DNA of 64,000 bases from positions 930,001-994,000 of the forward strand of contig BSYQ01000008.1 in assembly GCA_030272585.1 (NCBI GenBank), written 5' to 3'. The notes under the pieces are model-generated. The model did no database searches. It was not told the origin of the DNA and saw only the letters and a list, made by a program, of their open reading frames with translations. The translations under genes were made by a program, and so were the position numbers. This stretch comes from Bryopsis sp. KO-2023. Lineage: Eukaryota; Chlorophyta; Ulvophyceae; Bryopsidales; Bryopsidaceae. Of the stretch, positions 27,296 through 48,099 are shown piece after piece (positions within the stretch are counted from its first letter, which is position 1; every line of letters begins with the position of its first letter).

Positions 27296-30160
27296 CACTA
27301 GTAAAAACAGGGCCGATTTACCACTTTTTTTTACCAAAAACTGGTAAAAAATCACGCTAATTTCAAGAAACTGAGAGAAAAAGTGGTAAAATAGAGGCTT
27401 TCACCTCAAACTGGTAAAATTTACCACAATCTGGTAAAAATTTACCATATTCACCAAAAATCGCCGCAACATGGTAATAATTTACAAGATTCACAAGATT
27501 TTACCAAAATATGGAGAAAAAAAAATCCAGAATGCGCTGCAATAAGTGCGATCAGAGGTTATCGACCAAGGCGATCTGGTTGTACTTCTTGCGAGGCACG
27601 AAACCCACGAGGGCAAACAAGCTACGAAGCAAACCAAGGTCCCATCACAGTTTTCCAGTTTTTTTTTCCAGGAAAGGCGCAAGGCCTATCGCGGTTGGTT
27701 GGGGCGGTGTGCAGACATCTCTCAAACATCGAGATTCTTTTTGTGGTCGATGATCACGTCAAAGGCGACGGGATAACAGCAAGTCTCGTGACAGTGGTGG
27801 CTCAAGTCTCGTGACAGTGATGGCTGGGGTTGTACCTCTTGCGTGGTCACGAAACCCACGAGGGCAAACAAGCAGCGAAGCAAACCATCACAGTTTCCCA
27901 GGAAAGGCGCGAGGAGAACCTTCCCCGGTTGGTTGGAGCGGTCTGCAGACATCTACTGAACAGCGCCAGTAAGAACAAGCCAAAAGCGACGAGACAGTAA
28001 GAGGTCTCGTCAGAGGGGAGGACATAAGACTACGAGGTCATGTGCTTCTATTGCCAGTGGGTAAGTTTTAACAGCAGCTCCCTGAAAACAATCCATTTGG
28101 CCATTTTTTTTTTTCTTCTTGGGATATACCGGTTAGAATCATATTGGAGTTCAATTGCACATCGCAAAGTGAAACCAATGGTCTTTCTTTTAATCGATAA
28201 AATTCCTTTGTTTTTGTTCATACAGTTGTACTTTCTCACGAGAATCAATCTCACACGACCAGGCCATACCCTGCACACCAGAAATCCCCAGCAAGATCAC
28301 TAAGGTTATTTCTCCAGTTTGGGTTGTTTCTGATTTGAAGTTTTCTTGATATACAGACAACAAGATGAGGCAGTGCTTCTGATGAATTGACAGAGAAAGA
28401 AGGTACTTTCAACTGAGAGTCGTATTTGAATTGTGATTATGCAACTCCTGGTTATAATCTTGGGGTCCAAACAGGGAAGAAATGGGCAACCCTAATCCTA
28501 CCGTGCAGAATTTTGGAAGGGTTCTGCAAACGACGATCCCCACGGTGTGCTTCGGCTCTTGCCAGCCTGGCACAACATGCACACCATCATAAGAATCTAT
28601 TCAATGGGAACAGGATGCCCATTGACTTTCAAACAAGCGGAGTGGACTTAGGTTTTATTGTTTTTATAGCTTTTCGCAGAATCGGGGAGTTGCAGTTGGA
28701 CCACTACATGGCAGCGATCACTCGGCAATTCAGAGCTGGCCGTTGCGAAAGAAAGAAGGAAACAGTTGGGCAGGTGGAAGAGGATGATCGATCAAACAAA
28801 ACAAGCTGCCGCTGATGAAAAAAAGTGGGTGATAAAAAATAGTAACACATCTCTGTGCGTGTGTTCTTTCAATTTCCTCTCAATTCACATGTTGAGGAAA
28901 ATCCACAAAACCACGACAATATCGCTTTTGAAGGTGTAACAAGATAACATATAACATAGAACAAAATTCCCTCCTCCCTCTCAGGTGCAGTCTGATGATT
29001 GTAATGTTTGCTAATTTTTATCATTTCAATGCTGCTGCTGGTGATGGCAATCCTTATCTTCTGTGGAAAGGATCGTTTCCTCCACCAACAATCGGAAAAA
29101 AGAGCAGAGACCTGTTCTTCTTCGAGAACAGGTTTGTGGGAGGAGCTCTGGGTATTGCAGTTCTGGGGTTCAGACATGAGGAATGCAGGTGCCTGAAAAA
29201 GAAACCAGGAATGCAGGTGCCTGCTTATCACCCACTTTTTTTTTTCTCTGTTTGAAACTCTGCCCCTGGCAAACAGAAAGAAGCAAAGGAGGGAGGGAAC
29301 TTTTGCGGGATACACAGATTGGTCACATTTTTCCATTCTTTCTTTATTTTCTTTTACTTTGTTTTATGGAGAGATGGTGAATATCCAATCAATGGGACAG
29401 TTTGGATCTCGGATCTCACATTCTGAACAGGGACACAGTGCCAACGATACCATCAAGGGAATATATTATATATATATACGAGAAGAACTTGTTTCTTGGA
29501 TGAGCAAAGTGGTTGCAGGAGATGGGTGGTCTCCCCCAGTTCTAGTTTCAGATCGGAGTAGTGATAGGAAGAAGAGTTCCAGGGACAGGAATATTAGATC
29601 TGAAAATGATGGGAAACACGATTTCAGGGCAACGGGGGGTTGTTGAATGTGGGGGCAGTGGGGGGTTGGATGCGTGGTTTGGCTCTGTAAAATTATTACT
29701 CAATGAACTTGTTTCCCGTTTCGATAGTTTTGCCTGTTACCAATTACCAAATTTTCACAATTACCAGTTTTCCTGAAACTACCAGATTTTCAAAGTGCAT
29801 CACTTTTCCAATTTACCAGATCGTTCTCACAATTACCAGTTTTTCAAAAGTCGTCACTTTTCGAATTTACCAGATTACGACCACGATTACCAGTTTTTAA
29901 AATTACCAGATTCTTGAAATTACCAGATTTTCAAAAGTCGTCACTTTTCGAATTTACCAGTTTACGACCACGATTACCAGTTTTTTCACCTCCCCAGAAA
30001 ACTGGTAAATTCTAATAATGTGGTAAAAAAAACTGGTAATCGTGGTCGTAATCTGGTAAATTGAAAAACTGGTAAACTCAAAAAAAACACGAAACGACTG
30101 TTGGAACTTCGTGCAAAAACTGGTAAATAAACTGGTAAATCGACCCTTTTTTTACTAGTG
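27296..30160. mobile_element. CACTA-superfamily DNA transposon, copy 1 (2865 bp, no transposase seen)
   Basis: The left end is CACTAGTAAAAACAGGGCCG followed by ATTTACCA; the right end is its inverted match, 26 of 28 bases. A 3-bp duplication, AAG, flanks it (27293-27295 and 30161-30163). CACTA termini with a 3-bp target duplication define the CACTA (En/Spm, CMC) superfamily. Both ends carry many copies of ACTGGTAAA or its complement TTTACCAGT over 200-450 bp, as expected for subterminal transposase-binding sites. No frame inside shows a transposase domain, so it is probably non-autonomous. Inside, 27578-27728 and 27824-27960 are a direct repeat, and 28430-28815 and 28990-29255 hold short open frames of unknown origin. 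Confidence 0.9.
29951..30062. repeat. Large subterminal palindrome of CACTA copy 1
   Basis: An arm at 29951-29986 (aatttaccagtttacgacca...) is the near-perfect inverted complement of 30025-30062, with about 40 bp between. CACTA copy 2 has the same structure at 46476-46510 and 46552-46588. Confidence 0.85.
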
Positions 30161-44621: not shown

Positions 44622-44779
44622 CTATGTTCTTCGAATCCTAATTCTTTTTGCTACCTTCTTTTTGATCCTTTCGAGTTGGACCGCAATCCACCCCCTGACG
44701 TCGAGAACGTTGGCGTACACGCCGGGGTACTCCTCACCACACCCACGCCCCCAAGAAACCAACCCAGTCAATTGCTGCT

Positions 44780-46686
44780 CACTAGTAAAAAAAGGGCCGA
44801 TTTACCACTTTTTTTTACCACAAACTGGTAAAAAAACAGACTAATTTCAAGAAACTGAGAGAAAAAGTGGTAAAACAGAGGATTTTACCTTAAAGTGGTA
44901 AAAGTTTACCAGAATCTAGTAAAATTTTACCAGAATCTGGTAAAAACAAGCTTCGAAAACGTGTAAATCGGTCGCGTCTCTCATAATCGGACCAGAATCA
45001 GATCCGAAATGTAAATTCGTCAGGGCCAACACCTTGTTTTCCAAGCCACGCCACAACACTTTCCAGAATCAGTTGCGCCTACCAACTCGCGGCGACGAGT
45101 GATAACTCGAGTTGTCTAGGAGGTTTCAACGTTGGCGGCGCGTTCGTGCGCGCAAGAAGGGTTAGGTTAAGTTTAGGTTACCGAACAAGGCGATGGGTTG
45201 CATGGTCAAGGTTGGAGAAGGCAAACAACGCGGAGGTAACGTTCGACTGTGCGCGTAGTTTGGAAAAAAAGCCATGGGAGTAACAAGTGAGGCAAACCAA
45301 TGTGCGAGCAGAGTTGCCAGGTAAGTGGTCGAGACAAAATGTGTGGAAGAGAAAGGAAAAAAAAATGTTATTTAGACTCTGAGTATCAGTGCAACCTCAC
45401 CCTCCAGCCACCCAATTATATTCAGGATAAAAACTAGTTTCTGGAGGGGCAAAGTGGCGGATGGGTGGTGATGATGGTCAGTCTCCTGTGGTTCCAATTT
45501 GAGATTACGGATCACAGCATGAGAGGATTCCAAGAGGCCCCAACGAGCCAAGCTTTTACGGTGATGAAAAAGTAAAATATGTGTGCGGCCTAAGAGTTCT
45601 GGTGAGCATTGAGATAATTTAGCTGCAGAAAACATTGCTGAACCTGTGCCCCACAACCACCACCAAGTAAAAAAAGATATTATGTGCTCCAGCTTCCCTG
45701 TAAAATCAACAATTGAAATGCAAAAATTAAAGATATACATGTGCAGCCAGTACCGTCTGGTTCTCAAGACTGAAGGCTTAACATCGTGTGTATTAATTCT
45801 GTTTATGTACATTCTCGGCTTTTAAGAGTGTGTATTCTTACTCTGTCGATTTACATGTGTAAACAAACTCAAGTTTTCCATTTATATCATTGACTCGCAA
45901 GGACATCATTGCCCTGCACAGTTCTGGGGGTGAGAGGAAACGGAGTGCGAATGTGATATCAATCGAGGTTTCGTCAGCAATATTCAGATGATAGGGAGGG
46001 AAGGGCTAGAAGGGCAGGTGTCCAAGCTGGGATAAGAATCTTGGATTGAAGCAGCGATAGGAGGAGGGATTCCAAGAACACGAATATTAATGATGGGAAA
46101 TATGAAATAGGGACAAGACTTGGAGTTTCTGTGTTACTGTGCACCTTGTGCGTTTGGGGCTTTCAAATGGTTGGAGTTCGAGATAAGAAAACCCCAGCCA
46201 GGTTCATCCAGGGTTATGTGTTTTGCAGTTGCTAGTATTTGGTGGGGCCTGTGGGAGGACAGTGGGTTATTGGATGTGGGTTTGGTTTATGGTTGTGTAA
46301 AGAGAGTACTTAATGACAAGAAGTTGTGTTCAGTTCCATCTCAAACTGAATTTGAATCACCAGTTTTGCATGCCAAACATTACTGTGATGACTGATTCTC
46401 TAATTCTTGAGTTTACCAGTCTCAGAATTACCACATTCCTGAAATTACCAGTTTCTCAAAAGTCGTCACTTTTCGAATTTACCACTTTACGACCACGATT
46501 ACCAGTTTTTCCACCTCCCAGAAAACTGGTAAATTCTGATAATGTGGTAAAAAAAAAACTGGTAATCGTGGTCGTAATCTGGTAAATTGAAAAACTGGTA
46601 AACTGAAAAAACGCACGAAACGTTTGTTTGAACTTCGTGCAAAAACTGGTAAATAAACTGGTAAATCGAGCCTTTTTTTACTAGTG
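44780..46686. mobile_element. CACTA-superfamily DNA transposon, copy 2 (1907 bp, no transposase seen)
   Basis: The left end is CACTAGTAAAAAAAGGGCCG followed by ATTTACCA; the right end is its inverted match at 26 of 28 positions. A 3-bp duplication, GCT, flanks it (44777-44779 and 46687-46689). Subterminal ACTGGTAAA/TTTACCAGT repeats fill about 170 bp on the left and 250 bp on the right. The right 700 bp resemble copy 1; the left interior does not. The interior has a short - strand frame at 45812-45372 but no transposase motif. It is inserted in the coding exon of the serine protease. Confidence 0.92.
46476..46588. repeat. Large subterminal palindrome of CACTA copy 2
   Basis: Arms at 46476-46510 and 46552-46588 are inverted complements (gaccacgattaccag versus ctggtaatcgtggtc at the core). 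This is the same structure as in copy 1. Confidence 0.85.
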
Positions 46687-47473
46687 GCTCAACCAACAGC
46701 GGGCCCCCCGAATCCTGGCTGCATGAATCTTTGTCCACTTCCCCCGCACACAGCATATCGTTCGTTATATCCACGCTCTGGTATGTCGTGTTGCATTCCA
46801 GCCGGGGCACCACTGGAACATCGACTTTCAGTAGTCTATCCGACAAGGAGCGGCGGTTATCTGCGATCGTTCTGCCCCACCCCAACACGGTACCGTACGA
46901 ACATGACGACCCATCCGGAGAGCACACATTCTTTCCCCTAATATCCACGGGAGGAGCCTCCGATTCGCCGTCCAAAACCAGCAGCGCGAAATCGAAGGAG
47001 TAAACGCCCCTCCGAACTTTGCGGTAGCTCGGGTGGGTGACAGATTCGATCGATTTGAACGCTCGAAAACGCCCCTCGTCGTTTCCTTCCCGCTCGAATC
47101 GACCGATGTGCACGTCAGGTTTCGACACTGAGTCCAGGCAGTGCGCCGCCGTGATGACCACGTTTTTCGCAATCAGCGACCCACCGCACAAATGGCGACC
47201 GCCGATGAATCGGCGTTCTTCGGGGACTCTGAGCGACGCCATGAACGAGAAGTTTCCAGGTTTGGTTTCGGTCCCACCTATGATTCTACCCGAACTCTCC
47301 ATGGCGGCCGTGTCGTTGTTTTGCAGCATGCGACGGCCACGTATCGCTCCCGAGCGAAGAATCTCGTGAGAAAACTCGCCGCCGATCGCCGGCCTTTCAT
47401 CAGACTCAGAGTTGGCGTTTGAAACCAATGATGAGAGTGCCAATATCAGGAGCAACCCTCTTGTAAAGCTCAT

Positions 47474-48099
47474 TCTGGAGAATGCTGGCAGTATGCCCAA
47501 AAAAAAGACAGAGAGCGTGCACTCTTTCACAACAAAAGTAGTAGCAGATGGTGAGAAAAGGTGTTTTTGTTTTTTCCAGGCGTATTTGCCCTAAATGCTG
47601 CAACACCAACAGTGACGTCCTTGGAGGAGTTTGGTGTCGTACTGGGGAAATCTCGTCAGACCCATCCACCCAATCAAATGCAACCAGATGTCGAAAGCGT
47701 CAAATCTGATTGAGTCGTTTGAATGTCTGTGGAGTTGATACGAGCTGGGAGTGAATTCAACTGGCAGTTGCAGGATTCGCCCACGATGCTCTCCTGGGCC
47801 TTCACTGCGAAAAAAAGTGCAGACTTGCGTTCAAAAACTTGCTGTTAGGAGGCCTTATCATGGAATATTGATTGATGAATGTTGGAAGTACTTGGGGAAA
47901 AGCTTTCTCTTTCTGTGTATTGATCGAAATCTTGACGCGGATGCCCTCCACTGAGAGTGGTGGACAAATATACACAATGAAAACAAGATGATGAAGCCCG
48001 TGGTATCGTGTGAATCTTTTTTTTTTCTCAAGGAGGAAAGTGAAAGAAAGTATGTCATCTTGTGACCCCCCCCCCCCAAAAAAAAAAGAATCAGTCTCA
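47474..48099. other. Spacer upstream of the protease gene
   Basis: It should hold the protease promoter (- strand) up to about 47700. The rest leads into repeat X and has no supported gene. Confidence 0.4.

Follow-up and report, generated by a model that had tools for sequence, protein, structure and literature searches.

The window, by which we mean the whole 64-kb stretch of DNA analyzed here, carries on its minus strand a gene for an S1 trypsin-like protease, running from an ATG at 47473 to a TAG stop codon at 44622-44624, whose coding sequence is split by a 1907-bp element (Table 1). The 5' part of the gene matches the Pfam Trypsin profile at positions 1-186 (E = 2.1e-33, over 46688-47473), and the 3' part matches it at positions 190-220 (E = 6.7e-05, over 44622-44777); the hydrophobic leader at the start of the protein was called by eye. 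The motifs TAAHC, FDFALL, and DSGGP are all present in the protease alignment and identify a Trypsin domain with its His, Asp, and Ser residues, which we take to be the catalytic ones. When the two flanks are joined with a single GCT retained, they give 942 nt, i.e., 313 residues and a stop codon with no internal stops, and this joined frame, which reads ..DSGGPLLVEQQLTGLVSWGRGC.. across the insertion point, matches the Trypsin profile with an E value of 1.2e-44. An earlier sequence-only reading of this locus had described a 1907-bp CACTA element in a protease exon, seven residues after the catalytic serine, whose removal leaves 314 codons without a stop. The ends of the element, its inverted repeats, and its target site duplication (TSD) were all recovered at the positions proposed, the break comes after a Glu seven residues past the DSGG serine, and the frame is indeed restored, but the figure of 314 includes the stop codon. 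The open frame continues upstream of the start ATG, suggesting that the protease gene has no intron 5' of the insertion, and long uninterrupted frames were also seen in the best-matching paralogues.

Table 1. Coordinates in the window of the interrupted protease gene, the inserted element with its component parts, and a second member of the same family
Feature	Position	Strand	Basis or content
S1 protease CDS, 5' part	46690..47473	-	ATG 47473, hydrophobic leader, His/Asp/Ser region to ..DSGGPLLVE
Protease CDS, 3' part	44622..44776	-	from ..QLTGLVSWGRGC.. as far as stop TAG 44622-44624
CACTA-type element, 1907 bp	44780..46686		ends, inverted repeats, TSD; second copy on contig C9
Left terminal inverted repeat	44780..44815	+	inverted-repeat pair, 36 nt, 89% complementary
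Right terminal inverted repeat	46651..46686	-	inverted-repeat pair, 36 nt, 89% complementary
TSD GCT, left copy	44777..44779		flank sequence
TSD GCT, right copy	46687..46689		flank sequence
Left subterminal repeats, 5 matches	44802..44901		motifs ACTGGTAA / GTGGTAA and complements
Right subterminal repeats, 11 matches	46413..46664		same motif set (ACTGGTAA / GTGGTAA and complements)
Second family member, 2865 bp, TSD AAG	27296..30160		one of eight 2.8-kb copies

A restored frame would be coincidental if the two parts derived from different genes or if the locus were a decayed duplicate of a complete paralogue, circumstances that the sequence-only reading had itself named as telling against its account. 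The S1 family is large enough to give such readings some footing, as a search of the genome (91.09 Mb in 28 contigs) with the protease recovered at least 58 matching stretches. Against them, the profile positions matched by the 5' part run on directly in the 3' part, the 3-bp TSD is exact, and the paralogues are similarly identical to both parts. Seven paralogous loci were taken for alignment, of which L016 was dropped as having no frame by the rule used; in the remaining six, the identities to the N-terminal and C-terminal parts are 55 and 58% (L010), 54 and 55% (L011), 53 and 53% (L012), 49 and 48% (L013), 48 and 48% (L014), and 48 and 45% (L015). The continuous profile and these roughly equal identities indicate that the two halves are one gene, and as the nearest other S1 paralogues are only 53-54% identical to the window protease among the matches listed, it is not a decayed duplicate. 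We therefore dropped the chimeric and decayed-duplicate readings, to which we give hardly any credence. The insertion point itself aligns to a short segment, similar in length in the paralogues, that has LLV on one side and LTGLVSWG on the other. As a separate observation, the residue preceding the Asp of DSGGP (position 193), canonically a Gly of the oxyanion hole, is something other than Gly in all seven aligned proteases (Q, E, K, L, N, N, and H in the window gene and L010 to L015).

The element begins with CACTAGTAAAAAAAGG.. at 44780 and finishes with ..CCTTTTTTTACTAGTG at 46686. It has the termini characteristic of CACTA (CACTR) transposons, with CACTAGTAAAA at either end, a 3-bp TSD (GCT), terminal inverted repeats (36 nt, 89%), and arrays of subterminal repeats amounting to 16 motif matches near its ends. 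The same motif set gives 16 matches in the second family member in the window, which starts at 27296, and 4 in the remainder of the 64 kb. We collected ORFs of at least 80 aa from six stretches, namely, the element, two other members, the element at 27296, and the neighborhoods of two single ends, and a Pfam scan of the resulting 67 ORFs gave no transposase match, the sole hit being Ank_2 (E = 0.007). On the strength of the ends, the TSD, and the subterminal repeats, and with transposase not found in the element or the relatives scanned, we classify it as a nonautonomous CACTA-type element, a kind of CACTA (EnSpm) element that is represented in plants by, for example, maize dSpm. CACTA transposons are mobilized by a DDE transposase of the Tnp2 type (Transposase_21), and a single Transposase_21 gene was found in the genome, at C12:548569-549374 (locus G000, C12:546208-549374). 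We considered this gene as an autonomous member of the family and dropped it, because ends like those of the 1907-bp element were not found on C12. The best CACT-ended pair around it lies at 542760 and 549923, with 15 of 20 bases alike and CCA on both sides; this is a weak lead, unlike the ends of the family, and may be a chance match. A 517-aa open frame beside the Transposase_21 gene has one other match in the genome, a weak one on C10 (31%, E = 5.9e-6).

A search of the genome with the element recovered the element itself, a copy on C9 that is broken into two segments (99.5 and 99.9% identical), older fragments on C15 (89-92%), and further sequences that have only the ends in common with it. 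Between the C9 copy and the window element there are six substitutions and a single 1-bp indel, an eighth difference being a product of the way the segments were joined; the C9 copy has its own TSD, TAG, and flanks unrelated to the protease gene, from which it follows that the element has moved. This copy (C9:44471-56476; L017 and L018) has in turn been interrupted by a Ty3/gypsy element of 10.1 kb, which is accompanied by a 5-bp duplication, TCGTC, and whose 422-bp LTRs are 100% identical. The older C15 relative belongs to the subfamily of the window element and, at 89-92% likeness, makes it clear that the family in its entirety is not a recent one. A 28-base terminal pattern, allowed up to three mismatches, matched the genome 34 times, against none for the pattern read backwards; 26 of the 34 matches pair up to give 13 two-ended copies, and the 8 single ends, among them those at C7:742794 and C3:3960035, were left out of the copy count. 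By length, these copies comprise two of 1907 bp, two of 3913 bp, eight of 2811-2887 bp, and one of 128 bp, the last a miniature member with both ends and a TTT TSD (L030 2199-2326). Perfect 3-bp TSDs flank 11 of the 13, and the other 2 are neighboring inverted copies (L025 1656-7973) whose flank triplets match crosswise, AAT with ATT and CTT with AAG, apparently a sign of a flip of the intervening stretch by recombination between the copies. The two 3913-bp members (L019 2033-5945 and L020 2265-6177) are identical over their full length yet have different TSDs, CAT and GGG, which points to recent transposition. Thus, the claim that the insertion in the protease is young receives indirect support, from the near-identical C9 copy and from these two identical members at different sites.

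The 13 empty sites were reconstructed, and 34 of the 38 frames of at least 60 aa spanning the join were scanned with Pfam, the other 4 frames, from the repeat-rich second L025 site, being left out. Matches with E values of 0.01 or lower were obtained at 5 of the 13 sites: Trypsin at the window protease, DDE_1 (5.9e-15), the dynein stalk MT (7.1e-05), LRR_8 (1.2e-04), and Ank (0.0045), with the LRR, ankyrin, and dynein-stalk scores falling under Pfam's own cutoffs where these are shown. The DDE_1 transposase frame spans one of the L025 sites once the inversion is undone. The copy at L021 2062-4946 (C5) lies in the stalk region of a dynein heavy chain exon that matches 49 distinct PDB sequences with E values of 0.01 or lower (best, 6.3e-14), and the best alignment crosses the join. 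A sixth site falls in a gene for a vWA-like protein (E = 3.5e-06), seen only after manual joining of two putative exons. The insertions lie at C5:448062 (dynein), C5:6462265 (LRR), C4:1565908 (ankyrin), and C4:725729 (vWA). Coding-exon insertion is thus clear for the dynein heavy chain and the DDE transposase and more weakly indicated for the LRR, ankyrin, and vWA sites; the empty site of the 27296-30160 member gave no Pfam match. About 1.1 kb past the copy that interrupts the ankyrin-like frame, we also noted a trypsin-like frame (L022 5792-6289) with 38% identity to the window protease over 63 aa. Two control sets were scanned: 44 positions offset from the sites by 700 or 1400 bp (by about 700 bp in the case of the C9 copy), which supplied 102 frames, and 30 positions spaced on a grid across the window, which supplied 87. 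Pfam matches occurred at about 11 of these 74 positions, a count that is read from family tallies giving neither the matching frame nor the position and that takes in positions within the insertion-bearing protease, DDE, and vWA genes. By one-sided Fisher test, the exon enrichment has a P value of 0.058 for 5/13 sites and of 0.017 for 6/13, with the hand-joined vWA site counted. Exon insertion is common in this family, and its enrichment is not firm.

The presence of these copies in exons raises the alternative that the element is a new, introner-like intron, whose ends, read in the sense of the gene, CACTA/GTAAAA and TTTTTTTACTAG/ (the slash marks the splice boundary), would be spliced to make a near-normal protease. 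These ends do offer a donor GT and, next to a run of pyrimidines, an acceptor AG, several further copies of the family sit in exons, and acceptor AGs in the target sequence itself (TGAG/ and GAGCAG/) would yield the protease in frame with two or one additional residues. The frame arithmetic nevertheless runs against it: if the terminal AG is used, 10 extra nt remain and shift the frame at all six exonic sites examined, so that excision through the splice sites of the element itself does not keep the frame at any of them, and at 5 of the 6, such splicing brings in a stop within the stretch examined. In-frame options that use a host AG within 25 nt exist at only three of the six, the protease (+2 or +1 residues), dynein (-2), and vWA (-1), and none was found within that distance at the LRR, ankyrin, and DDE sites. 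The exon enrichment is also weak (5/13 versus about 11/74), and a length of 1907 bp is far above the medians of 30-654 nt given for introner families in the part of the published account used here (PMC9860276). We therefore dropped the introner as first choice and consider it very improbable. Some rescue by splicing at the protease is possible, and a designed intron looks unlikely. Splice-like motifs do recur in the ends and subterminal repeats (CTA/GTAAAA, CTG/GTAAA, TTTACTAG/, and TTTACCAG/). On that basis, one might propose that the family tends to settle in coding exons, where splice sites on either strand would make its copies partly tolerable and let the host gene remain somewhat functional, as an early stage in the making of an intron out of a transposon; we regard this, too, as improbable, if marginally less so.

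Taken together, these observations make it very probable that a nonautonomous CACTA (EnSpm-type) transposon, at a time that is recent on the scale of this genome, entered one of the S1 trypsin-like genes within its single coding exon. Insertion would have proceeded by a cut-and-paste mechanism with transposase supplied in trans. The frame that reads from the protease into the element ends at a stop after about 63 codons (363-aa ORF, 46499-47590), so that the predicted product, truncated after ..LLVE and extended by about 63 element-encoded residues, would lack the final portion of the S1 domain. S1 proteases that lose this part are expected to lose activity, and this copy is probably inactivated, while some transcripts might be spliced in frame. 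The insertion would be young and may be polymorphic. The restored frame is not remarkable by itself, since taking out any recent insertion that has a TSD likewise restores the frame, and the event is an ordinary and familiar kind of mutation, well preserved here. We treat the protease as an ordinary host gene because the genome looks like that of a free-living alga. Among the other genes of this genome are many for chlorophyll-binding proteins; in a comparison with PDB sequences, one such protein was closest to green-type LHC, with LHCII proteins labeled siphonaxanthin/Bry-Lhcb among its best few matches, and the host is therefore probably a siphonous green alga.

At this locus, a DNA transposon that was recently mobile has cleanly and naturally disrupted an algal gene. 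The insertion is usable as a marker in strain comparisons and as a starting point for tracing the active transposase. The exon insertions, including that in the dynein heavy chain, are sites where RNA data could show whether CACTA elements are ever spliced from exons. Families of this sort seem to be little described for this algal genome, on which the literature searches listed nothing. Among the closest known systems is TgmR of soybean (PMC4219821), which, in the portion of its description consulted, likewise has CACTA ends, a 3-bp TSD, and reiterated subterminal motifs; the same source presents Tgm1 as a defective element interrupting a seed lectin gene. TgmR differs in being a 13-kb, transposase-bearing, intronic element, whereas the sequence and host are different here and a transposase-bearing partner was not found. 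Introners, as described in the part of the report by Gozashti et al. (2022; PMC9860276) drawn on here, share with this family DNA transposon features, insertion into exons, and splice-like motifs at the ends. According to that account, mRNA length is unchanged in most introner families, and an Aureococcus family adds 12 bp; in contrast, splicing at the termini of the present element would lengthen the mRNA by 10 nt, a frameshift, and the element is far longer than those introners.
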